This document shows positions 2,747 through 22,496 of a DNA stretch of 41,444 nt, in pieces. This DNA is from Elusimicrobiota bacterium (lineage in GTDB: Bacteria; Elusimicrobiota; Elusimicrobia; UBA1565; UBA9628), in assembly GCA_016207605.1 (NCBI GenBank), contig JACQPJ010000003.1, positions 1 through 41,444 of the forward strand, read 5' to 3'. Every line of letters begins with the position of its first letter. The stretch's first letter is position 1. Below the pieces are notes generated by a model. The model had not been told where the DNA came from and searched no databases. It was given only the letters and a program-made list of their open reading frames with translations. A program made the translations under genes and the position numbers.

Positions 2747-2748
2747 CC

Positions 2749-2934: not shown

Positions 2935-2941
2935 GGCGACT

Positions 2942-3337: not shown

Positions 3338-3342
3338 GCGTC

Positions 3343-3909: not shown

Positions 3910-3911
3910 CC

Positions 3912-4274: not shown

Positions 4275-4287
4275 GGAGATGCGCGCG

Positions 4288-4878: not shown

Positions 4879-4888
4879 GAGCGCCCCC

Positions 4889-7373: not shown

Positions 7374-8149
7374 CGAGCAAAGCCGCCGAGGTCAAGAGTC
7401 CCGCGGAGATCGCGCTCATGCGCCGCGCGGGCGGCGTGGTCGGCGACGTCCTCGCCGCGCTCGCGGCGCGCGTCGCCCCGGGCCTGACCACGGGCGAGAT
7501 CGACCGCCAGGCGCGCGCGGAGCTCAAGGCTCGTGGAGTCAAGCCCGCGTTCCTCCACTACCACGGCTTTCCCGCGGTGATCTGCGTCTCGGTCAACCAT
7601 GAGGTCGTCCATGGCATTCCCTCCGACGCCCGCGTTCTTAGGGAAGGCGATCTCGTCGGCCTGGATTTCGGCTGCGTGGTCGACGGCTGGTACGCCGACG
7701 CGGCGGTGACCGTGGGCGTGGGCCGCGTCTGCGAGGAGGCCGCGCGCCTCCTGCGCGTGACCCGGGAGTCCCTGGAGCGCGGCATCGCCGCGGCGAGGGC
7801 CGGCGCGCGCCTGGGAGATATTGGCGCCGCGGTCCAGGGGCACGCCGAAGCCGCCGGCTGCTCGGTGGTGCGCGAATTCGTGGGGCACGGCATCGGCCGC
7901 GCCCTCCACGAGGATCCGCCCGTGCCCAACTACGGCCGGCCCGGGTCGGGACTCCGGCTCAAGGCCGGCATGACCCTGGCCATCGAGCCCATGGTCAACC
8001 TCGGCGGCCCCGAGGTCGAGACCCTGGCCGACGGCTGGACCGCGGTCACCAAGGACCGCCGGCTCTCGGCGCATTTCGAGCATACCGTCGCGGTCACGGA
8101 GCGGGAGGCTGAAATCCTGACCCTGCCCGCCGGGCAAAAACTCTCATGA
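7367..8149 (+). CDS. map: Methionine aminopeptidase, type I
   Basis: A 260-residue protein, the compact type I size. It removes the initiator methionine from nascent proteins. The five metal ligands of the pita-bread fold are visible: D100 in GLDFG, D111 in WYADAAV, H174 in GHGIG, E207 in AIEPM and E238 in FEHT. The substrate-pocket histidine is expected in [24 protein letters not shown], which is well conserved. ATG 7367 overlaps adk by 7 nt. The stop overlaps infA as ATGA, giving tight coupling along secY-adk-map-infA. Confidence 0.97.
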
Positions 8150-8361
8150 CGAAGGAAGAAAAGATCGAAGTCGAAGGCAGCATCCTGGAGGCGCTTCCCA
8201 ACGCGATGTTCCGCGTGCAGATCGCCCCGGGCAAGGTCGTCCTGGCCCACATTTCCGGCAAGATGCGCATGCACTACATCAAAATCCTGCCCGGAGACCG
8301 GGTCCGCATCGAGCTGTCCCCCTACGATTTGACGCGGGGGCGCATCATCTATCGGGAGTAG
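8146..8361 (+). CDS. infA: Translation initiation factor IF-1
   Basis: A 71-residue single OB-fold protein, the standard IF-1 size. It contains [46 protein letters not shown] and [14 protein letters not shown], nearly invariant in bacterial IF-1. It binds the A site of the 30S subunit during initiation and assists IF-2 and IF-3. It overlaps map by 4 nt and lies 12 nt upstream of rpmJ, the usual infA-rpmJ-rpsM-rpsK order. Confidence 0.98.
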
Positions 8362-8373
8362 GACGAGGCCACC

Positions 8374-8487
8374 ATGAAAGTGCGAGCAAGCGTCAAGCCC
8401 ATATGCCAGAAATGCCGGATCGTCAAGCGCGACGGCGTCGTGCGCGTGCTGTGCTCCAACCCGAAGCACAAGCAGCGGCAGGGCTGA
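8374..8487 (+). CDS. rpmJ: 50S ribosomal protein L36, zinc type
   Basis: A 37-residue protein starting [14 protein letters not shown]. The zinc ligands C11, C14, C27 and H32 are all present (CxxC-x12-C-x4-H), so this is the zinc-binding form. The C-terminal NPKHKQRQG is typical. L36 is the smallest large-subunit protein and lies near the base of the L7/L12 stalk region. It is found by position and sequence, between infA and rpsM. Confidence 0.97.
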
Positions 8488-8518
8488 GAACGCATCGGGA
8501 CGAGGAAAGGAGAGAGAT

Positions 8519-8914
8519 ATGGCGCGTGTGTCCGGAGTGGATCTTCCCAAGGGCAAGCGGATCGACGTGGCGTTGCGGCTGATCTACGGCGTGGGCAAGA
8601 CCCGCGCCGGCGAGGTCCTCGCCAAGCTCAGCGGCATGGTCAAGCCGGAAACCCGGGTCAAGGACTTGAGCGAGCAGCAGATCGGCCTCATCAACACGCT
8701 GCTGACCAAGGAGTACCGGGTCGAGGGCGAGCTGCGCCGGGAGATCCAGGCGAACATGCAGCGCTTGACGGAAATCGGCTCCTACCGCGGCCACCGGCAC
8801 CGACGCAGCCTCCCCGCGCGCGGCCAGCGCACGCGCACCAACGCGCGCACCCGCCGCGGCCGCCGCAAGACCGTGGGCGTGGGCAAGGCCGCCTCGCCGA
8901 CCGGGAAGGCGTGA
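8519..8914 (+). CDS. rpsM: 30S ribosomal protein S13
   Basis: A 131-residue protein with the family start MARVSGVDLPKGKRIDVALRLIYGVG, the LTKEYRVEGELRREIQANMQRL segment and the C-terminal GSYRGHRHRRSLPARGQRTRTNARTRRG signature, followed by a basic tail. S13 in the 30S head contacts tRNA and forms intersubunit bridges. A strong ribosome binding site AAAGGAGA (8507-8514) precedes the ATG by 4 nt. The 31-nt gap upstream is the first appreciable spacer after infA and could hold a control site, but no clear promoter is seen. Confidence 0.97.
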   Translation: MARVSGVDLPKGKRIDVALRLIYGVGKTRAGEVLAKLSGMVKPETRVKDLSEQQIGLINTLLTKEYRVEGELRREIQANMQRLTEIGSYRGHRHRRSLPARGQRTRTNARTRRGRRKTVGVGKAASPTGKA

Positions 8915-8941
8915 CGAACCGTTTTGACAGGAGATTGAATC

Positions 8942-9361
8942 ATGGCTGACGAGAAGACCGCCCCCGCCGCAAAGGCCGCGCCTTCGGCCGCGCCCCGCAA
9001 GCGGGCCTGGAAGTCGCTGACCTTCGCCAAGGTCCACATCCAGTGTTCCTTCAACAACACCGTCGTGACGCTGACCGATGACCGCGGCGACGTTCTCGCC
9101 TGGGCGACCGCGGGCGGCTCGGGCTTTCGCGGCACGAAGAAGGGGACGCCCTTCGCGGCCGGCGTGACCGCCGGCAAGGTGGCCAAGCGCGCCATGGAGA
9201 TGGGGGTCAAGCAGGTCGCCGTCTTCATCAAGGGTCCCGGGCCCGGCCGCGAGACCGCGGTGCGTTCGCTCGGCTCGGCGGGTCTCCTTGTCGTCAGCCT
9301 CAAGGACGTCACGCCCTTGCCTCACAACGGCTGCCGTCCGCCCAAGGCCAGGAGGGTTTAA
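8942..9361 (+). CDS. rpsK: 30S ribosomal protein S11
   Basis: A 139-residue protein. The core includes AKVHIQCSFNNTVVTLTD, WATAGGSGFRGTKKGTPFAA, VFIKGPGPGRETAVRSLGSAGL and the C-terminal DVTPLPHNGCRPPKARRV, an almost perfect S11 signature. About 20 Ala/Lys/Pro-rich residues precede the core. S11 forms the platform of the 30S subunit beside the mRNA exit site. A ribosome binding site AGGAG lies near 8930, about 8 nt before ATG 8942. Confidence 0.97.
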   Translation: MADEKTAPAAKAAPSAAPRKRAWKSLTFAKVHIQCSFNNTVVTLTDDRGDVLAWATAGGSGFRGTKKGTPFAAGVTAGKVAKRAMEMGVKQVAVFIKGPGPGRETAVRSLGSAGLLVVSLKDVTPLPHNGCRPPKARRV

Positions 9362-9364
9362 GAG

Positions 9365-9991
9365 ATGTCGCGCTACACCGACGCCGTCTGCAAGCTGTGC
9401 CGCCGGGAGCAGCAGAAGCTGTTCCTGAAGGGCGACAAGTGCTACACCAAGTGCGTCTTCGAGAAGAAGCCCGGCACGCCCGGCATGGCCAAGCCGCAGC
9501 GCGGTAAGCCCTCCGCCTACGCCATCCGCCTGCGCGAGAAGCAGAAGCTGCGCCGGATGATCCAGATGAACGAGCGCCCCTTCGAACGCCGCGTCGCCGA
9601 GGCGTCCAAGGCCCGCGAGGCCTCGGGAGACCACTTGCTGCGCTCTCTCGAGCTTCGGCTCGACAACGTCGTCCGCCGCATGGGCGTGGCCACTTCGCTG
9701 CGCACCGCGCGCCAGTTCGTCAAGCACGGGCACGTTCGGGTGTCGGGCCGGCTGGTCAACATCCCGTCCTACGCGGTCAAGGCGGGGGACGTCGTGGCCC
9801 TCAGCCCGAAGCTGAAGGAGAACGTCAACGTCAAGCTCAGTCTCGACACGGCCAAGAAGCTCAGCAACCGCCCGAGCTTCCTGGAGTTCGACGAGGGCGT
9901 CCTGTCCGCCAAGGTGCTCCGCCCGCCCGAGCGCGGCGAGATGTCCTTCCCGATCAACGACCAGCTCATCATCGAGTACTATTCGCGCTGA
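9365..9991 (+). CDS. rpsD: 30S ribosomal protein S4, zinc type
   Basis: A 208-residue protein of normal size. The N-terminus has four cysteines (C9, C12, C26, C30) in a CxxC-x13-CxxxC zinc site, so this is the C+ form of S4. Further landmarks are RLREKQKLRRMIQMNERPFERR and the S4 RNA-binding domain with LELRLDNVVRRMGVATSLRTARQFVKHGHVRVSGRLVNIPSY. S4 nucleates 30S assembly by binding the 16S 5' domain. In Escherichia coli it also represses the alpha operon. It starts 3 nt after rpsK. Confidence 0.98.
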   Translation: MSRYTDAVCKLCRREQQKLFLKGDKCYTKCVFEKKPGTPGMAKPQRGKPSAYAIRLREKQKLRRMIQMNERPFERRVAEASKAREASGDHLLRSLELRLDNVVRRMGVATSLRTARQFVKHGHVRVSGRLVNIPSYAVKAGDVVALSPKLKENVNVKLSLDTAKKLSNRPSFLEFDEGVLSAKVLRPPERGEMSFPINDQLIIEYYSR

Positions 9992-10021
9992 CCTCTCAGA
10001 GGAACCCGGAGAACACAGACC

Positions 10022-11035
10022 ATGGCCTACAAGGAACTGATCCTGCCGCAGAAGCTGTCCGTGGACGAGAAGACCCTGTCCGACGTCTACGCCAAGTTCG
10101 TCGCCGAGCCCTACGAGCGCGGCTACGGGCACACCGTGGGCAACGCCCTGCGCCGCGTGCTGCTCTCCAGCCTGGAGGGGGCCGCGGTGACCGCCGTGCG
10201 CGTCGAGAAGGCCGCGCACGAGTACCAGGCCTTGTCCGGGGTCAAGGAGGACGTCATGACCATCCTCCTCAACCTCAAGAAGCTGCGCCTGAAGCTGTTC
10301 TCCAACGGCCCTGAGACGCTCTACCTCAAGGCCGGCAAGGAGGGCCGCGTGAGCGCGTCCCAGATCGAGGGCAACGCCAACGTCGAGATCGTCAACAAGG
10401 ACCTGGTCCTGGCCCACCTCGAGGCCGGCGGCAAGCTGGAGATGGAGATCGAGGTCTCCAAGGGCCGCGGCTACGTTCCAGCCGAGGAGCTGCGCCAGCA
10501 GAACCAGTGGGCGGCGGGCTTCCTGCCGGTCGACGCCCTGTTCTCGCCGGTCGTCAAGGTCCACTACGACGTGGAGAACGCGCGCGTCGGCCAGGTGACC
10601 GACTACGACCGCCTGATCCTCGAAATCTGGACCGACGGCTCCCTCAACCCGGCCGAGGCGCTCATCCAGTCCTCCAAGCTGCTGCGCGAGTCGCTCAACA
10701 TCTTCATCCCGGAGGAGGAGCAGGCCGAGCCGGCGTCGGCGGCGGGCGGCTTCGAGGGCGACGGCGGCCCGGGCGACGCCGTGATGGCCGGCGCGGCACT
10801 CGACCCCAAGCTGCGCGACATCCTCGGCCAGCCCATCGAGATGATCGAGCTGTCCTCGCGCGCCTCCAACTGCCTCAAGGTGGCCCGCATCCGCACCATC
10901 GGCGAGCTCGTCTCCAAGCGGGACGAGGAGCTTCTCGCCGTCAAGAACTTCGGCAGGAAGTCCTTGGACGAGATCAAGGACCGCCTCAAGGACATGGGCC
11001 TGTCCCTGGGCATGCAGGTCGGCCAGCCCGCCTAA
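10022..11035 (+). CDS. rpoA: RNA polymerase alpha subunit
   Basis: A 337-residue protein. The N-terminal dimerisation domain (about 1-235) has SDVYAKFVAEPYERGYGHTVGNALRRVLLSSLEGAAV. The C-terminal DNA- and activator-binding domain (about 262-330) has IELSSRASNCLKVARIRTIGELV and KNFGRKSLDEIKDRL, with the Arg, Asn and Cys used for UP-element contact conserved. A Glu/Ala/Gly-rich linker joins them. The 30-nt spacer after rpsD contains the perfect palindrome CCTCTcAGAGG (9992-10002), whose role is unknown, and a GGAG motif upstream of the start. Confidence 0.98.
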   Translation: MAYKELILPQKLSVDEKTLSDVYAKFVAEPYERGYGHTVGNALRRVLLSSLEGAAVTAVRVEKAAHEYQALSGVKEDVMTILLNLKKLRLKLFSNGPETLYLKAGKEGRVSASQIEGNANVEIVNKDLVLAHLEAGGKLEMEIEVSKGRGYVPAEELRQQNQWAAGFLPVDALFSPVVKVHYDVENARVGQVTDYDRLILEIWTDGSLNPAEALIQSSKLLRESLNIFIPEEEQAEPASAAGGFEGDGGPGDAVMAGAALDPKLRDILGQPIEMIELSSRASNCLKVARIRTIGELVSKRDEELLAVKNFGRKSLDEIKDRLKDMGLSLGMQVGQPA

Positions 11036-11045
11036 GGAGTCTCCC

Positions 11046-11390
11046 ATGGCCACCAAAACGCTGGGCCGGCGCAAGCTCGGGGTGACGAGTTCGCACCGGC
11101 GCGCGCTGCTGCGCAACATGGCGACGAGCCTGTTCAAGCACGAGCGCATCGAGACCACGGTCGCCAAGGCCAAGGAGCTGCGTCCCTTCGCCGAGAAGCT
11201 CATCACCCATGCCAAGAAGGGCGAGCATTTCATGGTGCGGCCCCAGATTCAGGACAAGGACGCCTACCACAAGCTCTTCGACGTCCTGGCGCCGCGCTAC
11301 GCCCAGCGTCCGGGCGGCTACACGCGCATCCTGCGCCTGGAGCCCCGTCTGGGCGACAACGCCAAGCGCGGCCTGATCATGCTCGTCTAG
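11046..11390 (+). CDS. rplQ: 50S ribosomal protein L17
   Basis: A 114-residue protein with [47 protein letters not shown] and a C-terminal [26 protein letters not shown], the complete bacterial L17 pattern. L17 lies near the polypeptide exit. A TAAGGAG ribosome binding site sits 6 nt before the ATG. It closes the alpha operon in most bacteria, but here mreB begins only 10 nt after the stop and no hairpin terminator is visible between them. Confidence 0.97.
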
Positions 11391-11400
11391 GGGCAGCGGC

Positions 11401-12450
11401 ATGCTCGATTTCCTCTTCGGTCTGTTCTCCAACGACATGGGCATCGATCTAGGCACGGCCAACACCCTGGTCTACGTCAAGGGCCAGGGGATCGTGCTGA
11501 GGGAGCCCTCGGTCGTGGCCATCGACCGGGAGTCGCGCCGCGTGCTGGCCATCGGCGCCGAGGCCAAGCGCATGCTGGGGCGCACGCCCTCGTCGATCAT
11601 CGCCGTGCGGCCGCTCAAGAACGGAGTCATCGCCGACTTCGAGGTGACGCAGGAGATGATCAAGTACTTCATCCGCAAGGTGCACAACCGCCGTTCCCTT
11701 CTGCATCCGCGGGTCGTCATCGGCATCCCCTCCGGCATCACCGAGGTGGAGCGCCGCGCCGTCCAGGAGTCGGCCGAGCAGGCCGGCGCCCGGCAGGTCT
11801 ACCTCATCGAGGAGCCCATGGCCGCCGCCATCGGCGCGGATCTGCCGATCTCCGAGCCGCACGGGAACTTCATCGTGGACATCGGCGGCGGCACCACGGA
11901 GGCCGCCGTCATCTCGCTGGGAGGCTTGGTCGTCTCCAAGTCGCTCGACATCGCGGGCGACGAGATGGACGAGGCCGTCATGATTCACTTTCGACGCAAG
12001 TACAACCTCCTGATCGGGGAGACCACCGCCGAGGAGGTCAAGATTCAGATCGGCTCGGTCTTCCCGCTCAAGGAGGAGAAGACCATGGAGGTCAAGGGCC
12101 GGGACCAGGCCACGGGCCTGCCCAAGACGGTCCTCATCACGTCGGAGGAGGTTCGCCAGGCTCTGATGGAGCCCGTGCAGCTCATCCTCGACGTCATCAA
12201 GAACACGCTGGAGGAGACTCCGGCGGAATTGGCTGCGGATTTAGTGGACCGCGGGATCATGCTCGCGGGGGGAGGGTCGCTGCTGAGGGGTCTTCCGGAC
12301 CTCATCCGGCAGGAGACCGAACTCCCGGTGCATCGGGCCGCGGACCCATTGAGCTGCGTCGCGCTCGGGACGGGGAAGTTCCTCGAGGAGCTGGACAACA
12401 TCATGGACCGGCGCCCCGACTTCGTCACGTCCTATCGTTACCGCTCGTAA
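11401..12450 (+). CDS. mreB: Rod-shape determining actin homologue MreB
   Basis: A 349-residue protein of normal length with the actin-fold ATPase motifs: phosphate 1 [13 protein letters not shown] (14-26), connecting and phosphate 2 motifs with [18 protein letters not shown], and the adenosine motif with [16 protein letters not shown]. The N-terminus [14 protein letters not shown] is hydrophobic, as in Gram-negative MreB proteins that bind membrane through an amphipathic helix. It polymerises on the inner membrane and steers lateral wall synthesis with MreC, MreD, RodA and PBP2, all encoded directly downstream. The 10-nt gap after rplQ suggests co-transcription with the ribosomal operon. Confidence 0.98.
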
Positions 12451-12483
12451 GAGCGGACCGCGCCTCCGTCGGGCCGGACGTTC

Positions 12484-13347
12484 ATGCAACGCGAAACGCG
12501 GATTGCGCACTACGTCGCCGCCGCACTGTCCGTTCTCTGCCTGACGCTGCTGTCCTTGCCGCTGTCGCCGCCCGCTCGGTCCGTCAAGGCCGCGGTCGGC
12601 TACGCGCTCGACCCGCTCGCTTACCAGGGGGAGAAAAGCTGGCGGCGCCTGGCCGGAGCGCCGGCCCGCGTCCGAGGGCTCATCGCGGCTGACGTCGAGA
12701 ACCAGCGTCTGCGCGGGGAGCTGCGCCGCGATGCCTGGCTCAAGACCGCGGTGCTGGCCTTGTCGCTCGAGAACGAGCGCCTGCGGACCGACCTGGGGCT
12801 GACGCCGCCGCGCGCCCGCGCGCCCCTGTGGACCCACGTCATGCGGCGCGATCCCGACCATTGGCACCGCAGCCTCGCCGTGGACGCCGGTTCCGACCGC
12901 GGGGTGTCGCCCGGGGACGCCGTTCTCGGGCCCCAGGACGGCAAGCTGGTGGCGGTCGGCCGGGTCGTGGACGTGCGCCCGGAGGTCTCGACCGTCCTTC
13001 TGCTGACCGACAAGGGCTCCTTTGTCGCGGCGTACCTGTCCTCCGGCACGCTGGAAGGCCTGGTGCAGGGCGGGGACGGCCCGCGGCTGCGCATGAACTA
13101 CTTGAGCGCGGAGGCCGGCCTCGTCCCCGGCGACCTGGTCTATACCTCGCCCACAAGCGCCGTGTTCCCGCCCGACGTCCTCATCGGCCGCGTCTCGCGC
13201 GTCCACCCGCGCGATCCCTTCCTGACGTTCCAGTCGGTCGAGATCGTTCCGGCGGCCGACGCCTCGTCCCTGCAGACCTTGGTCGTGCTGCGCCGCGGCG
13301 GGCTCGCCGGCGGCGGCTCCCCGGACGGCGCGGAGGCGGCGCCGTGA
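12484..13347 (+). CDS. mreC: Rod-shape determining protein MreC
   Basis: A 287-residue protein. One N-terminal membrane segment (about 9-28), then a helix with ENQRLRGELRRDAWLKTAVLALSLENERLR that should form the dimerising coiled coil, then the two beta-barrel domains with a DRGVSPGDAVLGPQDGKLVAVGRVVDV block. A TSPTSAVFPPDVLIGRVSRV segment is typical of MreC. It bridges MreB and the periplasmic wall synthases and activates PBP2. The 33-nt space after mreB holds no recognisable signal. The stop overlaps the mreD GTG as GTGA. Confidence 0.93.
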   Translation: MQRETRIAHYVAAALSVLCLTLLSLPLSPPARSVKAAVGYALDPLAYQGEKSWRRLAGAPARVRGLIAADVENQRLRGELRRDAWLKTAVLALSLENERLRTDLGLTPPRARAPLWTHVMRRDPDHWHRSLAVDAGSDRGVSPGDAVLGPQDGKLVAVGRVVDVRPEVSTVLLLTDKGSFVAAYLSSGTLEGLVQGGDGPRLRMNYLSAEAGLVPGDLVYTSPTSAVFPPDVLIGRVSRVHPRDPFLTFQSVEIVPAADASSLQTLVVLRRGGLAGGGSPDGAEAAP

Positions 13348-13814
13348 GGATTTTGCGCGGAGTCGCCGTCTTCTTCGGGGCCATGCTCCTCCAGTGGTGG
13401 TGGAGCTCCCATCTGGGCCGTCCCGGCGCGTCCCCGCAGTTCCTGCTCGCGCTGACGATCCTCCTGGCGGCCCGCCGCGGCCCCGTGCTGGCGATGCTGG
13501 CCGGCTTCGGCTGGGGCCTCTATCTCGACCTCGCCCGCGCCGAGCTCTTCGGCGCCGGCGCGCTCACGCTGGTTCTCGCGGCCTACGCGGCGAGCCTGGC
13601 GCGCCGCCAGATCGACCTTCGCGCCGCCGCGCCTCTGGCGCTGCTGACCTGCCTGCTCAGCGCCGCCGCGCTCCTCCTGGAGGGCGCGCTGGGCCTCGTG
13701 TTCGTCTCGCGCTTCCAGTGGGCCGGCTGGCTGGCGCTTCTGGTCGTTCCCATCCTCAACGCCGCCGTCGCCGCGGTCCTGGCCGCGGCCTGGGATGCCG
13801 GAGGGCCGCGGTGA
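13344..13814 (+). CDS. mreD: Rod-shape determining membrane protein MreD
   Basis: GTG 13344 overlaps the mreC stop and gives 156 residues, normal for MreD. The protein is almost wholly hydrophobic with four to five membrane segments. It contains the family-like GFGWGLYLDLARAELFGAGALTLVLAAYAASLARR, in which a G-x-x-x-D feature followed by a G-rich helix recalls the MreD substrate-binding-like fold. Sequence conservation in this family is weak, so the call rests partly on position between mreC and mrdA. The frame extends upstream through mreC, but only this part is coding. The stop overlaps the mrdA GTG. Confidence 0.88.
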   Translation: MRILRGVAVFFGAMLLQWWWSSHLGRPGASPQFLLALTILLAARRGPVLAMLAGFGWGLYLDLARAELFGAGALTLVLAAYAASLARRQIDLRAAAPLALLTCLLSAAALLLEGALGLVFVSRFQWAGWLALLVVPILNAAVAAVLAAAWDAGGPR

Positions 13815-15589
13815 GGTCCGGCGTCGAGCGCCGCGGGCGGTTGGAGGCCCTGTGGCTGGTGATCGCCGCGGGCGGCGCGGCCCTGGGACTGCGCCTGGCG
13901 CAGATGCAGATCCTGGACGCGGCCAGCTACCGCGAGGCCGCCGAGCGCAACCGCTCGCAGATGATCTATCAGACCGCGCCGCGCGGGCGCATCTACGACC
14001 GCCACGGCGAGCTTCTCGCGACGAGCGCGCCCGCCTTCTCCCTCGTTTTCCTGCCGCATCGCGGCCGCACCGGTTTGGCCGCCCTGGCCGGCGAGCTGGC
14101 CCGCCAACTCGGCCGGGACCCGGAGGAGATCCTGAAGACCCTCCAGGAGGCCGCGCGCGAGGAGAGCGCCGTGACGCTGGCCGACAACCTGCCCGCGCCC
14201 GTGTTCTTCCGCCTCTCGGAGCTCAAGGCCCTCTATCCCGGGGTGGACCTCATCCTGGAGGCGCGCCGCTACTACCCGTTCGGGCGCTTCTCCAGCCATT
14301 TCCTCGGCTACATGGGTCGGATGAACCGTCGGGAATGGCGCGCCCTGCGCTCCCAGGGCTACCGTCTGGACTCCCGGGTCGGCAAGCTCGGCTTGGAGAA
14401 GATTTTCGAGGGCGAGCTGCGCGGGCGCGACGGCGGCCTGCGCATGGAGGTGGACGCGCAGGGACGACTGAAGCGGATCCTGGGCACGCTGCCCTGGCGT
14501 CCGGGCGGCGACTTGCGCCTCACGTTGGACGCCCGCGTTCAGGCGGCGGCCGACGAGGCCCTGCGCGCGACCGGGACGGGGCGCGGCGCGGCGGTGGCCA
14601 TCGACCCGCGCAACGGGGACCTGCTCGCCCTGAGCTCCCAGCCCGATTTCGATCCCAACGCCCTGCTGTCGGCCGCCGCAGCGTCCGCCCGCGTCGGCGC
14701 CCTGCCTGAGTTCGACAACGCGATCTCGGGGACCTATCCTCCGGGCTCCACGTTCAAGCCCATCGTGGGCCTGGCCGCTCTCAACGAGCGGCGCGTGCGG
14801 CCTCAGGAATCGTTCTATTGCCCCGGGTCCTTTCGCCTGGGAGTCCGCACCTTCCTCTGCTGGGAGCACAAGGGACATGGGAGCGTCTCCTGGCTGGAGG
14901 GCCTGGCGAAGTCGTGCGACGTCTACTTCTACAACGCGGGCTTGCGCGCCGGCGGCGCGCTCATCGAGAGGTACTCCCGAGCTTTCGGCCTGGGCTCCCG
15001 GGTCGGCCTGGGCGGCTTTTCCACGGAGAGGCCGGGGAATCTCTTCGGGCCGCAGGCGCGGGGCCTGGCCGGCCGCGGCTGGCACAGGGGCGACACGCTC
15101 AACTTGTCCATCGGGCAGGGGGAGCTCCTGGTCACGCCGCTGCAGATGGCGGTCGTGGCGGCGTCCCTCGCCAACCGCGGCACGGTCTGGCGGCCCCGCT
15201 ACACGAGCCGGGTCGTCTACGCCGACGGCCGTCCCGACTACGTCCAGGGGCCGGAGATTCTCGGCCGCGTCCAGGCCGACGGCTCCGCCTGGGACCAAGT
15301 TCAGCGGGCCCTGGAGCTGGCGGTCTCCTCCGGCACGGGCATGGGCGCGCGCGTGCCCGGGCTGAGCGTCGCGGGCAAGACGGGGACCGCCCAGAATCCC
15401 TTCGGGGAGGACCACGCCTGGTTCATCGCCTACGCGGCCCGCCCCGGCGAGCCGGCCGCCATCGCCGTCGCCGTCCTGGTGGAGAACGGCGGGCACGGCG
15501 GGGCGGTCGCGGCGCCGGTGGCTCGCCGGATGATCGAGGCGCGCTTCGGACGTCCCGGTCCCTTCCCGTCTGGCGGGGGGGCCGGATGA
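13811..15589 (+). CDS. mrdA: Penicillin-binding protein 2 (elongasome transpeptidase)
   Basis: GTG 13811 gives 592 residues. One N-terminal membrane segment (about 11-33) is followed by the pedestal domain with APRGRIYDRHGELLATSAPAFSL, the hallmark of class B PBPs. The transpeptidase domain has all three motifs: S313-T-F-K316 in PPGSTFKP (catalytic serine), S368-C-D370 and K523-T-G525 in AGKTGTAQ. It cross-links peptidoglycan during side-wall growth, acting with RodA. The sequence SCD replaces the more general SxN, as is common in PBP2. Both ends overlap neighbours by 4 nt (mreD before, rodA after). Confidence 0.97.
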   Translation: MRSGVERRGRLEALWLVIAAGGAALGLRLAQMQILDAASYREAAERNRSQMIYQTAPRGRIYDRHGELLATSAPAFSLVFLPHRGRTGLAALAGELARQLGRDPEEILKTLQEAAREESAVTLADNLPAPVFFRLSELKALYPGVDLILEARRYYPFGRFSSHFLGYMGRMNRREWRALRSQGYRLDSRVGKLGLEKIFEGELRGRDGGLRMEVDAQGRLKRILGTLPWRPGGDLRLTLDARVQAAADEALRATGTGRGAAVAIDPRNGDLLALSSQPDFDPNALLSAAAASARVGALPEFDNAISGTYPPGSTFKPIVGLAALNERRVRPQESFYCPGSFRLGVRTFLCWEHKGHGSVSWLEGLAKSCDVYFYNAGLRAGGALIERYSRAFGLGSRVGLGGFSTERPGNLFGPQARGLAGRGWHRGDTLNLSIGQGELLVTPLQMAVVAASLANRGTVWRPRYTSRVVYADGRPDYVQGPEILGRVQADGSAWDQVQRALELAVSSGTGMGARVPGLSVAGKTGTAQNPFGEDHAWFIAYAARPGEPAAIAVAVLVENGGHGGAVAAPVARRMIEARFGRPGPFPSGGGAG

Positions 15590-16929
15590 CGCTGATCCGC
15601 ACGTCTCCCGGGCGCGCGGGCCGGGTGGACTGGGCGTTGGTCGCCGCGGCCGGCGGGCTGCTGGTCATCGGCTCCCTGGCGATGCTGTCCGCGGCGAGCA
15701 CCACGCCCTACTATTCCTCCGTCTTCCGGACGCACTTCGTCGCCCTGGGGATCGGCGCGGCGGCCTTCACGCTCATGCTCGCCTTCAATTATCAGATCTT
15801 CCAGGATCAGTCTCGGGCGCTTTACGCGCTGGCGCTGGTCCTGATGGTCGTCACGCTTCTCTTTGGGCACGTCTCGCGGGGCCATCGCTCCTGGCTGCGC
15901 GTGATGGGCTTTGGATTCCAGCCCGGCGAGCTGGCGCGCATGCTGCTGATCCTCGTTCTGGCCGACGTCCTGGACCGCCGCGCGCGCCGCATCGAGAGCC
16001 TCTCGACCCTGCTCACGGTCCTGGCCGTCGCGGCGCCCATCCTGATCCTCATCCTCCGGCAGCCCGACTTGTCCACGACGCTGTCCTTCGTCCCGGCGCT
16101 GATGGGGATGCTCTTCTGCGCCGGAGCCGACGTGCCGCAGATGCTCGCCGTGTTCGGCTGCGGCGCGGCCGCCTTTGGGATGCCCCTCCTCTACACGTTC
16201 TGCAGCGCCCGCTTCCCGGACGCCGCGCCCCACAGCCTGCCGGCGCTCGTCCTGGCGACGTCGAAGTCCGGCTGGGCGGCGCTGTGGACGATCCTCCTCT
16301 TCGCCGCGGCGGGAGCGCTGGCCTGGCGCCTGGCGACCTGGCTGCGCCTGCAGGTCAAGCCCCTTGCCTTCGTCGTCGCCCCTCTTCTGCTCTCCGCCTC
16401 CCTGCTCTCGGGCCTGGCCATCTACGGCCGGCTCAAGGGCTACCAGCGCGACCGCTTCGTGGCCTGGGTCGCGCCGGAGACGGACGTCCAGGGCGCGGCC
16501 TACAACGTCATCCAGTCGCGCATCGCCGTCGGGTCCGGGGGGCTCTGGGGCCGGGGCTTGTTCTCGGGCACGCAGTCCCAGCTCGGATTCCTGCCCGAGC
16601 GCCACACGGACTTCATCTTCGCCGGCGTGGGCGAGGAGATGGGGTTTGTCGGCTGCTCCCTGGTCCTCGGGCTCTACATGCTGCTGCTGTGGCGCATCGT
16701 CGCGGCGGCGCGCCTGGCGCGCGACCGCTACGGCTACCTGGTCTGCGCCGGGCTGGCCTCCATGCTGGCCTGTCACCTGGCGCTCAACGTCGGCATGTGC
16801 GTCGGCCTCCTGCCCGTGGCCGGGCTGCCCCTGCCGCTCGTCTCCTACGGCGGGACGAACCTGGTGGTCACGCTGGGCGCCCTGGGCATCGTCGCCAACA
16901 TCTACGCGCGCCGCTACGCTTTACTTTAA
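15586..16929 (+). CDS. rodA: Peptidoglycan glycosyltransferase RodA (SEDS family)
   Basis: ATG 15586 overlaps mrdA as ATGA and gives 447 residues with about ten membrane segments. SEDS landmarks are a first helix running to MLSAAST, SRGHRSWLRVMGFGFQPGELARMLLILVLAD with the conserved QP-x-E, LRQPDLSTTLSF with the catalytic aspartate region, a QSRIAVGSGGLWGRGLFSGTQSQLGFLPERHTDFIFAGVGEEMGF block, and GLPLPLVSYGGTNLVVTL. It polymerises lipid II into glycan strands with PBP2. The protein is longer than the usual 370 to 420 residues because of an inserted hydrophobic stretch before the GRLKGYQRDRF region. Confidence 0.97.
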   Translation: MTLIRTSPGRAGRVDWALVAAAGGLLVIGSLAMLSAASTTPYYSSVFRTHFVALGIGAAAFTLMLAFNYQIFQDQSRALYALALVLMVVTLLFGHVSRGHRSWLRVMGFGFQPGELARMLLILVLADVLDRRARRIESLSTLLTVLAVAAPILILILRQPDLSTTLSFVPALMGMLFCAGADVPQMLAVFGCGAAAFGMPLLYTFCSARFPDAAPHSLPALVLATSKSGWAALWTILLFAAAGALAWRLATWLRLQVKPLAFVVAPLLLSASLLSGLAIYGRLKGYQRDRFVAWVAPETDVQGAAYNVIQSRIAVGSGGLWGRGLFSGTQSQLGFLPERHTDFIFAGVGEEMGFVGCSLVLGLYMLLLWRIVAAARLARDRYGYLVCAGLASMLACHLALNVGMCVGLLPVAGLPLPLVSYGGTNLVVTLGALGIVANIYARRYALL

Positions 16930-16940
16930 TGGAGGACACC

Positions 16941-18734
16941 GTGTCCCAAGACAACCAACCCATTCCCGCCGCTCCGGACGGGCCCAACCGCCCCGAGCAT
17001 CCCCGCGAGCCGGACCACGCGGCGTCGGCCGCCGATCTGTACCCGCGCGCGGACGGCCCGGTGGAGGCCGACCGCGACGTGCCCCAGCCGGAGGAGCCCC
17101 GCGAGGGCGACGCCTCCGATCCCGGGGGACGCTGGCGCCGGCGCCGGACGCACGGCGGGAGCGCGCCGCAGCCCCGGAGGGACGGCGCACGCCGAGAGCC
17201 CGGCCACCGCGACGAGCGCGGACACCGCGAGGAGCGCCGCGGGGGGGAGAGCCGCGGCGCGGGGCAGGAGCGCACCAACGAGACGCGCGGCGCCCGGCCC
17301 CCGGTCAAGCGGGAAGTCCTGGCCAATACCTCCTTTGAAGAGACGCGCATCGCCATCATCGAAAACGGACGGCTGGCCGAGCTGCACTGGGAGCGCAAAA
17401 GCGCCCAGAACATCGTGGGCAACATCTACAAGGGCACGGTGGAGAACGTCCTGCCCGGCATCTCATCGGCCTTCGTCTCCATCGGCTTCGAGAAGAACGC
17501 CTACCTCTACATCTCCGACGTGCTGGGGGAGAAGGGCGCGCCCATCGACCAGACCTTGAAGAAGGGGCAGTCCGTCATGGTCCAGGTGGCCAAGGAGGCC
17601 ATCTCCACCAAGGGCCCCAAGGTCACGATGGACGTCACGCTGCCCGGCCGCTACCTGGTCTTCACGCCCAATCAGCAGTACGTCGGCATCTCCAAGCACA
17701 TCTCCGACCCCGAGGAGCGCCGCCGCCTGGAGGCGATCGTGGACCGGCTCGTCGCCGGCCACCTGGGCGGCAAGGGCGTGGTCGTGCGCACCGAGGCCGA
17801 GGGCGCCAGCGAGGCGGACCTCGAGCGCGAGGTGAAATACCTTCTCAACCTTTGGCAGCAGATCCGCAAGCGCTTCGAGGAGAAGCCCGCGCCGGCGCTC
17901 CTGCACCAGGACCTGGGGCTGGCCCTCCAGATCGCCCGGGACATCCTCTCCGAGCAGGTGTACGTGTACATGCTCGACAGCAAGGAGACGCACAAGGAGG
18001 TCCTCGATTTCGTGGAGGGCTTCGCGCCGGAGCTCAAGGACCGCGTGCGCCTCTACGAGGCCAAGACGCCGATCTTCCAGGCCTTCAACCTGGAGAAAGG
18101 AATCGCCGGCATCCGGGAGACCAAGGTGCCCCTGCCCAACGGCGGCTCCATCGTGATCCAGGAGGCCGAATCGCTGTGCGCCATCGACGTCAACACGGGG
18201 CGCTTCACGGGCTCGAAGTCCCAGGAGGAGACCGTCACCCAGACCAACGTGGAGGCCGCGCAGGAGGTGGCCCGCCAGATCCGCCTGCGCAACATCGGCG
18301 GCATCATCGTGGTGGACTTCATCGACATGCGCAAGGCCTCCAACCGCGCCAAGGTCATGGAGGCCTTCGCCTCGGCCTGCCGGTCCGACCGCGCCAAAAT
18401 CCGCCTGCTGCCCATCACGCGCCTGGGCCTCATCGAACTCACGCGCGAGCGCAAGCGCATGTCCACGGCGAGCCTGCTCACCGCGGAGTGTCCGCAGTGC
18501 CGCGGCTCCGGGCGCGTGCTCTCCGCCGAGACCCTGCGCATCAAGATCCAGCGCGAGATCTTCGAGATGACGGGCGGACGCCCGGGGGGCTCCGTTCGGG
18601 TGAGCCTCCATCCGTCCGTCGCCGAGGCCTTCCGCGCCCAGCAGACGGTCATCGAGAAGAACGTCCAGCGCTCGATCAAGATCCAGAGCGACTCCCAGCT
18701 CGCCTGGGAAGACTATCGGGTCGTGCTCGAATGA
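16941..18734 (+). CDS. rng: Ribonuclease E/G family endoribonuclease with long basic N-terminus
   Basis: GTG 16941 is preferred because GGAGG (16931-16935) lies 5 nt upstream. The in-frame ATG 16929, overlapping the rodA stop, is the alternative. The product has 597 residues. Residues 1-120 are low complexity, rich in Pro, then Arg, Gly and Glu. The S1 domain follows (NIYKGTVENVLPGISSAFVSIGFEKNAYL). The DNase I-like catalytic domain has D416 in CAIDVNTGR and D459 in IVVDFIDM, spaced 43 residues apart as in RNase E (D303/D346). C517 and C520 in CPQC form the zinc link. No RNase E-type C-terminal scaffold is present, so it is closer to RNase G. It should mature rRNA and degrade mRNA. Confidence 0.95.
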   Translation: MSQDNQPIPAAPDGPNRPEHPREPDHAASAADLYPRADGPVEADRDVPQPEEPREGDASDPGGRWRRRRTHGGSAPQPRRDGARREPGHRDERGHREERRGGESRGAGQERTNETRGARPPVKREVLANTSFEETRIAIIENGRLAELHWERKSAQNIVGNIYKGTVENVLPGISSAFVSIGFEKNAYLYISDVLGEKGAPIDQTLKKGQSVMVQVAKEAISTKGPKVTMDVTLPGRYLVFTPNQQYVGISKHISDPEERRRLEAIVDRLVAGHLGGKGVVVRTEAEGASEADLEREVKYLLNLWQQIRKRFEEKPAPALLHQDLGLALQIARDILSEQVYVYMLDSKETHKEVLDFVEGFAPELKDRVRLYEAKTPIFQAFNLEKGIAGIRETKVPLPNGGSIVIQEAESLCAIDVNTGRFTGSKSQEETVTQTNVEAAQEVARQIRLRNIGGIIVVDFIDMRKASNRAKVMEAFASACRSDRAKIRLLPITRLGLIELTRERKRMSTASLLTAECPQCRGSGRVLSAETLRIKIQREIFEMTGGRPGGSVRVSLHPSVAEAFRAQQTVIEKNVQRSIKIQSDSQLAWEDYRVVLE

Positions 18735-20182
18735 ACATGAAGCGCTTCCTGCTCCCCGCGGCGTTCCTTGTTCTGTCCGCCGCCGCTGCCCGGCTCGCGG
18801 CCGAGGAGGCGGCCGTGGTCGTCTCCGGCAAGCCCGTCGCCTCCGCCGCCGTCTACCGGGCCGGCGGGGAGGCCTATCTCGACGCCCGCAGCGTCGGGCG
18901 CGCCCTCGGCGGCCAGGTGTACTGGTATCCGGTCTCGGGCCGGGTCCGCCTCAGCCTGCGCGGCCGCGCCATGCAGTTCGTCGCGGACTCCGCGCGCGCG
19001 GAGTCGGGCGGGGAATCCTTCGTCCTCCCCGCGCCGGTCAAGGTGCGGGCGTCCCGCGCGTTCCTGCCCGTCTCCTTCCTGGTCTCCAAGCCCTTTGGGC
19101 GCTGGAGCGGAACCGACGCCCAGTGGGACGACCGCACGGGCACGCTCGAGATCGACCGCCGCGGGGACGTCGGCCCGGTCCACGTCTTCTCCTACGACGG
19201 GCACACCCGCGTCGTGCTGGAGCTGGCGCCTGGCGTCGCCTATCGGGCCGCCCCGCGGGGGGCGGGGGCCGTCGAGGCGACGCTGCCCCTCGGGACGATC
19301 GAGAGCGCGGACCGCGCCGAGGTGGACGACGGCGTGGTCGCCTCCTACCAGCTCAAGCAGGAGACCCGGCAGGCCCGCTTGATCATCCAGTTCGCCGCGA
19401 AGGGCGCGCATTGGCGCGCCGCCGAGCTGTCCGACCCGCGCGGCCTGGCCATCGACGTGTACGCGCCCGGAGTCCCGGAGCTCCCGCCGCCCTCTCCCCA
19501 GAAGCGGCGCGTCGTGGTCGTGGACGCAGGGCACGGCGGTCAGGACCCGGGCGCGACGGGCCGGCGCGGCACCCGGGAGAAGGACGTCAACCTCGCCGTC
19601 GCCCTGGAGCTGTCCCGCGTCCTGCGCCGGCGGGGCGACTTCGAGGTCGTGCTCACCCGGGACCAGGACGCCTTCGTCCCCCTGTCCGACCGCTCCGACA
19701 AGGCCAACGCGCTCAACGCCGACCTCTTCGTGTCCCTGCACTGCAACGCCGCCTCCAGCGCGCGCAAGAGCGGCTTCGAGGTGTACTCGGTCTCCGAGAC
19801 CGCCTCCGACCCCGAGGCCGAGCGCCTGGCCCAGGCCGAGAACGCGGCCCTCAAGCTGGAGGGCAAGGACCCTCAGGACGAGACGGCCAAGCTCATTCTC
19901 CTGGCCATGACCAAGACGGAGATGCTCAACGAGTCCGCGCCCTTCGCCGTGCTGGTGGAGCGCGCCCTCGACCGCTACACGGACCTGGAGAATCGCGGAG
20001 CCAAGCAGGCCGCCTTCTACGTCCTGCGCGGCACGCACGCCCCCGCGATCCTGGTGGAGATGGGCTTCGTGAGCCACCGCGACGACGAGGCCAAGCTCAA
20101 CTCCCGCGCTTTCCGGCGCCGGATGGCGGAAGGCATCGCGGCGGGCGTCGCCGACTATGCCCGCTCGAAGGGGTGGCTGTGA
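18731..20182 (+). CDS. Exported N-acetylmuramoyl-L-alanine amidase (Amidase_3)
   Basis: ATG 18731 overlaps the rng stop and gives 483 residues. A signal peptide is visible (KRFLLPAAFLVLSAAAARLAAEE, cleavage likely near residue 20). Next comes a domain like the copper-amine-oxidase N-terminal stalk (about 30-135), then an AMIN-like beta domain (about 145-235). The catalytic Amidase_3 domain (about 260-480) has zinc ligands H268 in DAGHGGQDPGATG, E283 in REKDVN and H337 in SLHCNAA, with catalytic E443 in ILVEMGFVS. It cuts the bond between muramic acid and the stem peptide, probably for cell separation or wall remodelling. It belongs to the AmiA/B/C family, but which one it equals cannot be said. 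Confidence 0.94.
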   Translation: MNMKRFLLPAAFLVLSAAAARLAAEEAAVVVSGKPVASAAVYRAGGEAYLDARSVGRALGGQVYWYPVSGRVRLSLRGRAMQFVADSARAESGGESFVLPAPVKVRASRAFLPVSFLVSKPFGRWSGTDAQWDDRTGTLEIDRRGDVGPVHVFSYDGHTRVVLELAPGVAYRAAPRGAGAVEATLPLGTIESADRAEVDDGVVASYQLKQETRQARLIIQFAAKGAHWRAAELSDPRGLAIDVYAPGVPELPPPSPQKRRVVVVDAGHGGQDPGATGRRGTREKDVNLAVALELSRVLRRRGDFEVVLTRDQDAFVPLSDRSDKANALNADLFVSLHCNAASSARKSGFEVYSVSETASDPEAERLAQAENAALKLEGKDPQDETAKLILLAMTKTEMLNESAPFAVLVERALDRYTDLENRGAKQAAFYVLRGTHAPAILVEMGFVSHRDDEAKLNSRAFRRRMAEGIAAGVADYARSKGWL

Positions 20183-20994
20183 GCCGGCCCGGCGCCGCGG
20201 CGCCCATCGGCGTGTTCGACTCCGGCCTGGGAGGGCTGACCGTGCTCCGCGCCCTGGCGCGGCGCATGCCCGAGGAGTCCCTGATCTATTTCGGCGACAC
20301 CGCTCACGTGCCCTACGGCTCCAAGTCGCCCGAGGCCATCGCGCGCTTCTCCGCGGAGGTCGCGCGCTTCCTGGCCGGGCGGGGCATCAAGCTGCTGGTC
20401 GTCGCCTGCAACACCTCCTCGGCCTGGGCTTTGCCCGCGCTCCGCCGCGCGGCAAGGGTCCCCGTGGTCGGCGTCATCGCGCCCGGCGCCCGCGCGGCGC
20501 GGGCCGTCTCGCGCCGCGGGCGCATCGGCGTGATCGGCACGGAGGCCACCGTGCGCTCCGGGGCCTACCCGCGCGCGCTTCGGGCCCTGGGCGGCGGCGT
20601 CCGCGTCGTCTCCCGAGCCTGCCCCATGCTCGTGCCGCTCGTGGAGGAGGGCTGGTGGGACGGCCCGGTGGCGGAGGCCGTCGTGCGCCGCTACCTCGCT
20701 CCGCTGCGCCGCTCCCGCGTGGACGCCGTCATCCTGGGCTGCACGCATTACCCCTATCTCAAGCCCGTGATCGCCCGCGCGCTGGGTCCGCGGGTGCGGC
20801 TCGTGGACTCCGCCGCGGAGACCGCGGCCGAGACCGAACGGGTCCTGGACCGCCTGCGCCTGCGCGTCCCGCGGGGGCGCCGCGGCCGGCGCGAATTTTA
20901 CGCTTCGGACTCCCCGGAGCGTTTCCGGCGCTTGGCGCGCCGCATGTTCGGGCGAGGAGTGACGCGGGTGCGGCTGCATCCGTTCGACGCATGA
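20179..20994 (+). CDS. murI: Glutamate racemase
   Basis: GTG 20179 overlaps the amidase stop as GTGA and gives 271 residues, normal for MurI. It converts L- to D-glutamate for peptidoglycan precursors. Motifs: GVFDSGLGGLTVLRAL with the catalytic-site Asp-Ser, FGDTAHVPYGSKSPEAI, VVACNTSSAWALP with C77, and GCTHYPYLKPVI with C188. These two cysteines are the acid/base pair. The neighbouring amidase and upstream rod genes fit a wall-related cluster. The stop lies only 13 nt before rho. Confidence 0.97.
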   Translation: MSRPGAAAPIGVFDSGLGGLTVLRALARRMPEESLIYFGDTAHVPYGSKSPEAIARFSAEVARFLAGRGIKLLVVACNTSSAWALPALRRAARVPVVGVIAPGARAARAVSRRGRIGVIGTEATVRSGAYPRALRALGGGVRVVSRACPMLVPLVEEGWWDGPVAEAVVRRYLAPLRRSRVDAVILGCTHYPYLKPVIARALGPRVRLVDSAAETAAETERVLDRLRLRVPRGRRGRREFYASDSPERFRRLARRMFGRGVTRVRLHPFDA

Positions 20995-21007
20995 CCGAGG
21001 TAACGAG

Positions 21008-22108
21008 ATGATGAACGAAGAGACTCACGGCGGATCGTCGGGCCAGGCCCCGCAGGGCGGCGGCCAATACCGTCACCAGCAGGGCTACGGCGGCGGCCGG
21101 CGCCGGCGCCGCCGCTACCGCGGCGGCGGGGGAGGCGGTGGCCAGGGCCAGCACGGCGGCCACCAGGGCGGCGGCCACTACCAGAACCGCGACCGCAGCG
21201 GCGGCGGCCCGCGGCCGCCCCAGGCCCCGCAGGCGCCCCAGCGCAGCGAGGCCGAGAAGCTCTTCATGTCGCGCACGCCGGTGGACCCGCACGAGTGGAT
21301 CCGGCTCGAGAAGGGCTCCACCGACCCCTCGATGCGCGCCATGGACCTCCTGGCCCCCATCGGCAAGGGCACCCGCGGCCTCATCGTCGCGCCGCCCAAG
21401 GCGGGCAAGACCACGTTCCTTAAGCAAATCTCCAACGCGGTCTGCGCCGTGGACCCCAAGGTCCGCCAGTACTGCCTGCTCATCGACGAGCGCCCCGAGG
21501 AGGTGACCGACTTCAAGCGCTCGGTCCCCGCCGAGGTCTGGGCCTCCTCGTCGGATCAGTCCTACGACAAGCACAAGCGCGTCGCCGAGGATCTCATGCG
21601 TCTGGCCGTCGAGAAGGCGGGCCAGGGCGAGGACGTCTTCATCCTGCTCGACTCGCTGACCCGCCTGGCGCGCGTGCACAACCAGTTCGCCACCGGCAAC
21701 CGCACCATGTCCGGCGGCCTGGACTCGCGCGCGATGGAGACGCCGCGCCGCTTCTTCGGCGCGGCGCGCAAGCTGGAGGAGGGGGGCTCGCTCACCATCC
21801 TGGCCACCATCCTGGTCGACACCGGCTCGAAGATGGACGACATCATCTTCCAGGAGTTCAAGGGCACGGGCAACATGGAGCTGGTGCTCTACCGCCAGGC
21901 GGCCGATATGCGCATCTTCCCCGCGCTCAAGGTCCGCGACTCCGGCACCCGCAAGGAGGAGAAGCTCTTCCCGAAGGAGTATTTGGAAGGCGTCTACAAG
22001 CTGCGCCGGCACTTGGCCGGCCTGGGCGACCTGGAGTCCCTCCGCGCGCTCGTCGAGCTGATGCGCGCGCACAAGACCAACGAGAAGCTGCTCGCGGCGT
22101 TGAGGTGA
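21008..22108 (+). CDS. rho: Transcription termination factor Rho lacking the N-terminal OB fold
   Basis: A 366-residue Rho. From about residue 97 it matches the Rho ATPase core: a WIRLEKG linker segment, then DLLAPIGKGTRGLIVAPPKAGKTT (Walker A 129-136), LLIDERPEEVTDFKRSV, the Q-loop region LLDSLTRLARVHN, the RRFFGAARKLEEGGSLT block, the R-loop DTGSKMDDIIFQEFKGTGNMEL and the SGTRKEE segment. Rho of Escherichia coli has 419 residues and carries a helical Rho_N and a cold-shock-like OB fold (primary RNA site) ahead of the core. Here residues 1-80 are Gly/Arg/Gln/His-rich low complexity with a run of six Arg (31-36). murI ends 13 nt upstream, leaving no room for more. The ribosome binding site is a weak GAGG; ATG 21008 and ATG 21011 are both possible. 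Loss of the primary RNA site must alter how it loads on RNA. Confidence 0.95.
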   Translation: MMNEETHGGSSGQAPQGGGQYRHQQGYGGGRRRRRRYRGGGGGGGQGQHGGHQGGGHYQNRDRSGGGPRPPQAPQAPQRSEAEKLFMSRTPVDPHEWIRLEKGSTDPSMRAMDLLAPIGKGTRGLIVAPPKAGKTTFLKQISNAVCAVDPKVRQYCLLIDERPEEVTDFKRSVPAEVWASSSDQSYDKHKRVAEDLMRLAVEKAGQGEDVFILLDSLTRLARVHNQFATGNRTMSGGLDSRAMETPRRFFGAARKLEEGGSLTILATILVDTGSKMDDIIFQEFKGTGNMELVLYRQAADMRIFPALKVRDSGTRKEEKLFPKEYLEGVYKLRRHLAGLGDLESLRALVELMRAHKTNEKLLAALR

Positions 22109-22112: not shown

Positions 22113-22496
22113 ATGACCAAGCAAGCCATCGCGACGCAAAAAGCCCCCGCGGCCGTCGGTCCCTACTCCCAAGCCGTGCGCGCCGGAAGTTTTCTCTTTA
22201 TTTCCGGCCAGATCGCCCTCAAGCCCGGCGCGGCGGCGGTCTCCGGCGGCGTCCCCGAGCAGACCGAGCAGTGCCTGCGCAACCTCCGCGAGGTCCTCGC
22301 CGCCGCCGGCCTGGAGCTCCAGGACGTGGTCAAGACCACGGTCTTCATGACCGACCTAGCCCAGTTCGCCGCCATGAACGAGGTCTACGCCTGCCACTTT
22401 CCGGCTCCGTTTCCCGCCCGCGCCGCCGTCCAGGCCGCCGCCCTCCCCAAGGGCGCCGCCGTCGAGATCGAGGCCATCGCCCTATGGGAAAAATAG
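22113..22496 (+). CDS. ridA: RidA/YjgF family enamine/imine deaminase
   Basis: A 127-residue protein of standard RidA size. Landmarks are a QKAPAAVGPYSQAVRAGSFLFISGQI N-terminus, TEQCLRNLREVLAAAGLELQDVVKTTVFMTDLAQFAAMNEVY, a PFPARAAVQAAALPKGA segment with the conserved arginine that binds substrate carboxylate, and VEIEAIA with the conserved glutamate. RidA hydrolyses reactive 2-aminoacrylate-type enamines released by PLP enzymes. It starts 4 nt after rho and its 3' end overlaps the next gene by 13 nt. Confidence 0.96.
   Translation: MTKQAIATQKAPAAVGPYSQAVRAGSFLFISGQIALKPGAAAVSGGVPEQTEQCLRNLREVLAAAGLELQDVVKTTVFMTDLAQFAAMNEVYACHFPAPFPARAAVQAAALPKGAAVEIEAIALWEK

Follow-up and report, generated by a model that had tools for sequence, protein, structure and literature searches.

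The primary RNA site is commonly treated as a defining part of the transcription termination factor Rho, and the roles of the residues of its motor are well established (E. coli numbering is used for them here). The N-terminal domain of E. coli Rho comprises residues 1-120 according to the available part of PMC11829017. Disordered inserts are widespread in Rho proteins (PMC10284900), and the accessible text of PMC4167861 reports that, in Rho of M. tuberculosis, an Arg/Asp/Asn/Gly-rich N-terminal subdomain binds RNA on its own. Canonical Rho is already known; the conserved clade of Rho paralogs compared here, which is without the OB fold of the primary RNA site and keeps the motor residues, appears from its sequences to be newly described. 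No description of an OB-less Rho paralog was found in the literature searched, which left out most subscription papers.

The gene under study, termed rho2, lies in a 41,444-nucleotide stretch of an Elusimicrobiota genome (contig JACQPJ010000003.1 of assembly GCA_016207605.1), hereafter the window. The features of the locus are listed in Table 1. Neither Rfam nor tRNA scanning of the window gave a match.

Table 1. Coordinates of the features at the rho2 locus, numbered along the window.
Feature	Coordinates	Strand	Evidence or remark
RNase E/G family gene	16284..18734	+	PF10150; conserved neighbour; true start probably downstream
N-acetylmuramoyl-L-alanine amidase gene	18731..20182	+	PF01520; conserved neighbour
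murI (glutamate racemase)	20179..20994	+	PF01177; upstream neighbour
GAGGT, ribosome-binding-like	20997..21001	+	By eye; 6 nt upstream of the rho2 ATG
rho2, OB-less Rho paralog, 366 aa	21008..22108	+	ORF, ATG start, domain and alignment searches
Disordered Gly/Gln/Arg/His-rich tail, residues 1-80	21008..21247	+	Composition; pLDDT; no secondary structure
Arg6 run, residues 31-36	21098..21115	+	Sequence; similar Arg clusters in same-genus relatives
Distal connector and Rho RecA-type motor, residues 77-366	21236..22105	+	Aligned to E. coli Rho 124-417; model, PDB matches
Walker A / P-loop GLIVAPPKAGKT, residues 124-135	21377..21412	+	Lys184 equivalent in 101/101 OB-less sequences
Q-loop (secondary RNA site), residues 229-239	21692..21724	+	Gly287, Gly288 equivalents in 101/101
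R-loop DTGSKM (secondary RNA site), residues 271-276	21818..21835	+	Lys326 equivalent Lys/Arg in 96/101
Arginine finger R315 (E. coli R366)	21950..21952	+	Kept in 101/101
ridA-type gene	22113..22496	+	PF01042; conserved downstream neighbour

The rho2 protein and the second Rho of the genome

Local alignment paired rho2 residues 77-366 with residues 124-417 of E. coli Rho at 46% identity, which makes E. coli residues 1-123 the part that is absent from rho2. Compared with the other Rho of the same genome, the homology started at residue 85 (residue 168 of the other protein). The conserved core had been placed from about residue 97 in an earlier note on this DNA; its start lies upstream of that by either alignment. 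PF00006 at residues 109-312 was the sole Pfam family above the cut-off, and neither PF07497 (Rho_RNA_bind) nor PF07498 (Rho_N) gave a Pfam match at E<=10. The NCBIfam Rho model NF006886 was matched at 361 bits (cut-off 315) over profile positions 123-412 only, and the full-length equivalog TIGR00767 at 342.5 bits, below its cut-off of 509.45. Among the features of Rho, rho2 thus has those of the motor (Walker A Lys, catalytic Glu, Walker B Asp, arginine finger, Q- and R-loops) and is without the Rho_N helix bundle and the OB/cold-shock primary RNA site. In an alignment of 37 members (A1), all 37 matched PF00006, and Rho_N and Rho_RNA_bind were not among the best 25 of the 48 families that matched it.

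An AlphaFold2 model built with a 37-sequence alignment showed pLDDT mostly above 87 over residues 81-366, with the exception of residues 221-240 around the Q-loop. Residues 1-80 had block-mean pLDDT values of 40-66 and were without secondary structure. Upon comparison of the model with the PDB, all 50 matches listed were Rho, with 267-293 columns aligned. As the earlier note had proposed, the first 80 or so residues are dominated by Gly, Arg, Gln and His and include six consecutive Arg (residues 31-36); over residues 1-85, the composition is mainly Gly, Gln, Arg, Pro and His. The term RGG-like suits this segment only loosely: by eye it contains a single RGG triplet in addition to the Arg6 run. 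We found no excess similarity of the tail to the N-terminal domain of E. coli Rho, as 156 of 500 shuffled tails scored as high, nor to the other Rho of the genome (453/500).

The two parts of the gene were further compared in 12 pairs of relatives. Within the tail (745 codons), differences at codon positions 1, 2 and 3 numbered 105, 94 and 277, and this bias towards the third position argues that the tail is translated as protein. The tail carried 146 nonsynonymous and 190 synonymous changes, a faster change than in the core, where 955 synonymous changes far exceeded the 224 nonsynonymous ones and pointed to purifying selection on rho2. Since 13 nt separate the end of murI (20994) from the rho2 ATG, a normal N-terminus cannot be hidden upstream, as had been suggested.

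The genome (1.44 Mb, 60 contigs, 75% complete) encodes a second Rho on contig C48 (locus L002), a protein of 456 aa with Rho_N, Rho_RNA_bind and PF00006, and its motor shares 48% identity with that of rho2. A search for a second, full-length rho had been proposed, and this is the gene it found. rho2 is consequently a paralog rather than an altered version of an only terminator, and the possibility that it is the sole Rho of the cell is ruled out. The short paralog was present in 17 of 18 same-genus genomes (G005 was without it, and in G009 it was seen as two contig-end fragments), which indicates a conserved gene rather than a chance occurrence. Canonical Rho was found in 16 of the 18, with none found in G001 (73% complete) or G009 (70%), and 15 of the 18 had both. 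A canonical Rho coexisted with the OB-less copy in 11/11 further genomes searched, and the OB-region motif was recognized by eye in all 11 canonical sequences. The canonical Rho genes of some Elusimicrobiota (L131, L132 and L167) lie in open frames of 612-755 codons in which 364-506 residues precede the P-loop, and these proteins may carry long N-terminal extensions.

OB-less relatives across bacteria

A contig scan with the window protein revealed at least 80 loci, and OB-less Rho was found in at least three phyla, namely Elusimicrobiota, Omnitrophota (9 OB-less loci among those read) and, in marine Gammaproteobacteria, genomes of Colwellia, Shewanella, Marinobacter, Marinomonas, Microbulbifer, Halomonas/Vreelandella and other members. 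Three of the loci (L115, L116 and L127) were found to have an OB region instead. L093 was unreadable by patterns, the tail of L058 has unread letters and L062 is incomplete. In the Elusimicrobiota sample, 37 of 247 genomes carried the short paralog by score (at least 327 bits, plus G549 at 325.7, whose sequence was read), part of them by score alone; these comprised 25/25 genomes of family f1, 4/4 of family f2 and 8 others, and some members of families f5, f6 and f9 (G057, G049, G052) had canonical Rho only. In the phylum sample around the Omnitrophota reference genome, 34 of 117 genomes carried the OB-less form by score and frame length, including one copy with in-frame stops (G624) and two contig-end fragments (G658, G587). 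The reference genome alone was positive among 274 in the class sample of Colwellia psychrerythraea, so OB-less Rho is rare in that gammaproteobacterial class.

An OB-less rho was also seen on plasmid pB of Spartinivicinus ruber (L159:5947-6906), near holin, terminase and minor capsid genes, and this plasmid looks like a phage-plasmid. The pB copy was the one annotated OB-less copy inspected, and it is labelled plainly as transcription termination factor Rho; a protein of different function can, it seems, be masked by automatic annotation.

To compare the OB region across these proteins, an HMM was trained on 23 canonical Rho sequences, with E. coli Rho, L115, L116, L127 and L164 held out. It found 28/28 OB-bearing sequences (27 distinct, as L045 and L179 are identical), the five held-out ones at E 1.3e-14 or better, and none of the 101 OB-less sequences at E<1e-3, the best value being E 5.8. 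One OB-less Rho each from Elusimicrobiota, Omnitrophota and Gammaproteobacteria matched PF00006 and generic AAA-type P-loop families, with no Rho_N or Rho_RNA_bind at E<=0.01. The absence of the OB fold that had been claimed for rho2 was borne out by the Pfam searches, by this model and by the unstructured residues 1-80 of the AlphaFold2 prediction, and a remote OB fold in the tail is ruled out by the same three lines. Close relatives, when aligned, shared the OB-less architecture; no OB fold was found in residues 1-96 or in relatives at this locus, and no frameshift or assembly error was seen to have removed it.

A tree was computed from 128 cores over 294 retained columns, which begin about 48 residues before the P-loop, and it contained a branch that splits the 101 OB-less from the 27 OB-bearing Rhos with an SH-aLRT value of 99. 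This was a quick tree with SH-aLRT values only, without bootstrap and midpoint-rooted, and the program warned of long branches meeting at that very split; on it, the OB-less Rhos of the three phyla form one clade with rho2 inside. The OB-less sequences of Elusimicrobiota needed two changes on the tree, as the f7 pair L044/L163 stood apart. The sequences were gathered by similarity to the window protein, and other lineages may be missing. Left out were L011, L014 and L025 (truncated or without a start), L093, L179 (identical to L045), L050-L069 (many from genomes already included), L134-L144 (second copies of included loci), and L046 and L156-L158 (distant ATPases). A further 12 loci were missed by the patterns: L161 and L162 are OB-less, eight (L148, L153, L168, L172, L173, L175, L177, L178) are OB-bearing, L166 is a fragment and L170 has no Rho.

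We found the motor to be kept throughout, as had been stated for rho2: the equivalents of K184, E211, R212, D233, D265, S266, R269, G337, N340, R353 and R366, the catalytic residues included, were unchanged in 101/101 OB-less sequences, and R-loop position 326 was Lys or Arg in 96 and Gln in 5. F232, P235 and K224, which are conserved in OB-bearing Rhos, differed in most OB-less members, so a partner surface may have changed. Positions 202-204, 221, 224 and 235 of E. coli Rho were compared as ones that we take to be NusG-related, and we draw nothing from them about NusG. The P-loop was mostly PPGSGKT or PPGCGKT in the OB-less Rhos of Omnitrophota and Gammaproteobacteria (L070-L126), and position 181 (Lys in E. 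coli) was Gly in 56/101 OB-less sequences.

The tails, in turn, varied. Of 97 sequences given, 96 were long enough to be measured (41 Elusimicrobiota, 9 Omnitrophota, 46 Gammaproteobacteria; L043 was too short), and the starts of L074, L092 and L126 are uncertain, so that upstream residues were possibly counted in. All 96 tails had a net positive charge, with medians of +8 in Elusimicrobiota, +6 in Omnitrophota and +4 in Gammaproteobacteria. Only the tails of Elusimicrobiota were Gly-rich (median Gly 0.33, against 0.03 in Omnitrophota and 0.00 in Gammaproteobacteria), and the 46 gammaproteobacterial tails were 18-38 aa long, rich in Lys and Arg and almost without Gly. Tail length ranged from near zero (L043) to 135 residues; within family f5, L043 and L160 were practically without a basic tail, and L161 had just a short stretch before the conserved part. 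Given these members, a long tail does not generally stand in for the OB fold, and an RGG tail as the general OB replacement is ruled out for the clade by the variation in length. The claim of a Gly/Arg segment in place of the OB fold accordingly suits just a part of the clade: most members of the window's taxonomic order that were read have a long Gly/Arg-rich tail, and members elsewhere have short basic or near-absent tails. The long tail looks like a lineage-specific elaboration on an OB-less motor, as judged from these sequences.

The gene neighbourhood was compared in 20 relatives. Within the order of the window's genome, a same-strand run reads RNase E/G, amidase, murI, (DUF5677-like), rho2, ridA, and 16/20 relatives had RNase E/G, amidase and rho2 in the gene order of the window. 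The loci of G010 and G044 were cut by a contig end or by the fetched range, with murI visible; G034 had no murI or ridA match, and none of the genes of the run was found in the 8-12 kb fetched for G051 and G048, which lie outside the order. A DUF5677-like gene between murI and rho2, absent from the window, was observed in 11/20 relatives (e.g. L004, L037). In the RNase E/G family protein of the window, the catalytic domain starts at ORF residue 452 and is likewise preceded by a long Arg/Glu/Gly-rich stretch, and the region ahead of the gene (313-15589) holds, by eye, ribosomal-protein, secY, adk, map, rpoA and mreB-type genes. No convincing neighbour was shared by the Omnitrophota loci or by most of the gammaproteobacterial loci, whose neighbours in common were scattered (several of L079-L113 stood outside the comparison). 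A DEAD-box-helicase-like gene, recognized by eye, lay downstream on the opposite strand within about 1.7 kb in six gammaproteobacterial loci, five of which are L095, L107, L119, L124 and L125.

A possible role for the motor without a primary RNA site

On balance, we lean slightly towards reading rho2 as a putative hexameric RNA translocase whose channel would be loaded directly, independently of rut recognition; in the window's lineage the tail would be a non-specific tether. On this reading, OB-less subunits would assemble into a Rho-like ring of six, single-stranded RNA would enter the central Q-loop/R-loop channel directly, and the ring would move along it using ATP; C-rich rut sites would not be recognized. 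The six basic disordered tails of each ring in the window's lineage may serve as a sequence-unspecific RNA tether or as a condensate-forming segment. As these proteins have no domain to hold rut RNA, their targeting to transcripts would depend on the tail, on a protein such as NusG or on RNA that other enzymes have already bound. In E. coli, according to the available part of PMC4150792, primary-site mutants of Rho, unlike secondary-site ones, keep termination at many genes with the help of NusG. The inter-domain connector, of which rho2 keeps just the distal part, is proposed in the accessible text of PMC5449661 to allow ring closure. The available part of PMC11829017 describes that polymerase-recruited Rho still captures RNA by its primary site and that the N-terminal domain is the target of the regulators Rof and YihE; on this ground, termination may be beyond a Rho that has lost this domain.

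The main alternative, which we consider unlikely, is that OB-less Rho is not a terminator but an RNA-decay motor, which would supply RNase E/G with RNA or clear RNA for it. Rho is reportedly a component of the degradosome in Rhodobacter capsulatus. The position of rho2 downstream of the RNase E/G gene in 16/20 relatives and the helicase-like gene near rho in six gammaproteobacterial loci are consistent with such a motor. However, the RNase E/G gene is part of a cell-shape and cell-wall run, with the amidase gene and murI intervening, so its proximity to rho2 may be inherited synteny, and the Omnitrophota loci and most of the gammaproteobacterial loci compared have no convincing neighbour in common. 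Rho induction is mentioned in the available part of PMC6582626.

It is quite improbable that OB-less subunits instead join canonical Rho in mixed rings, where they would adjust how many primary RNA sites a hexamer has, or would poison it. The coexistence with canonical Rho in 11/11 genomes speaks for this, as do the R353 and R366 equivalents kept in 101/101 OB-less and 27/27 OB-bearing sequences. Nevertheless, the two motors differ at about half of their residues (48% identity in the window's genome), and the OB-less clade groups across phyla, with the host Rhos apart; diverged motors and such grouping, in our view, fit independent rings better.

There is little to recommend the idea of a decoy or selfish Rho that moves horizontally and benefits mobile DNA by disturbing host termination or taking its place, although the pB copy lies beside phage genes and the distribution in Gammaproteobacteria is patchy (one genome of the 274 in the class sample). 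Among 473 plasmid records that matched a gammaproteobacterial query, the pB copy alone exceeded 60% identity, and a scan of viral contigs for six peptide patterns taken from that copy revealed one IMG/VR contig, whose copy is identical to that of pB. The 18 matching records of a phage collection were all below 60% identity, with none covering 80% of the query (11 were unannotated among the 15 of 18 listed). The presence in all f1 and f2 genomes, at a conserved locus where examined, is housekeeping-like. Finally, a frameshift, misassembly or truncated pseudogene of a normal Rho has a negligible chance of explaining rho2 despite the incomplete draft genome, as the architecture is repeated in independent genomes and phyla with conserved context and coding-type substitutions, a normal Rho is encoded elsewhere, and the 13 nt to murI together with the same architecture in relatives rule out an artefact or a hidden N-terminus.

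The direct-loading translocase could also be seen more broadly, as one example of a widespread, unrecognized class of Rho-derived hexameric RNA motors that act without rut recognition and outside termination (e.g. in RNA decay or ribonucleoprotein remodelling), with tails tuning RNA capture or condensation; we regard this extension as doubtful. The OB-less clade offers a natural test of the motor alone, namely of ring loading without rut RNA, of whether NusG or a basic tail is enough, and of use in RNA decay.

Comparison with known Rho proteins and related ATPases

FliI and the type III secretion ATPases share the RecA-type ATPase superfamily with rho2. An identity as a FliI-type ATPase is ruled out, as this family scored 76.5 bits against 361 for Rho, and the Rho Q- and R-loops are present in rho2.

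The NCBIfam model NF041509 (paralog_Rho2, 'Rho, short form'; a 360-position profile) likewise names a second, shorter Rho as a paralog. In contrast to its members, rho2 reached 295.4 bits against a cut-off of 628 and matched profile positions 69-359 only, so that membership is ruled out on score; the cut-off was exceeded in 0/10 genomes. The canonical Rhos of relatives matched this profile from position 12-18, which suggests that it includes the OB region. The Rhos at L115 (Limisphaerales), L116 (Verrucomicrobiota) and L127 (bacterium) are about 380-407 aa long and have the OB region, with Rho_N not evident by eye; these are perhaps the short form of NF041509.

The Rhos with disordered regions of Actinobacteria and Bacteroidota resemble rho2 in having Arg/Gly/Gln/Asn-type disorder on the N-terminal side. 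In those proteins, according to PMC10284900 and the available part of PMC4167861, the disordered region is an insert that separates the helix bundle from the OB fold without the loss of either, whereas rho2 has neither. Canonical Rho, as in E. coli (NF006886/TIGR00767), has the motor fold, Walker A and B, catalytic Glu, arginine finger and Q- and R-loops in common with rho2. In contrast to rho2, it has the N-terminal domain with Rho_N and the OB/cold-shock primary RNA site, it lies on the other side of the tree, and the two proteins coexist in the same genomes.
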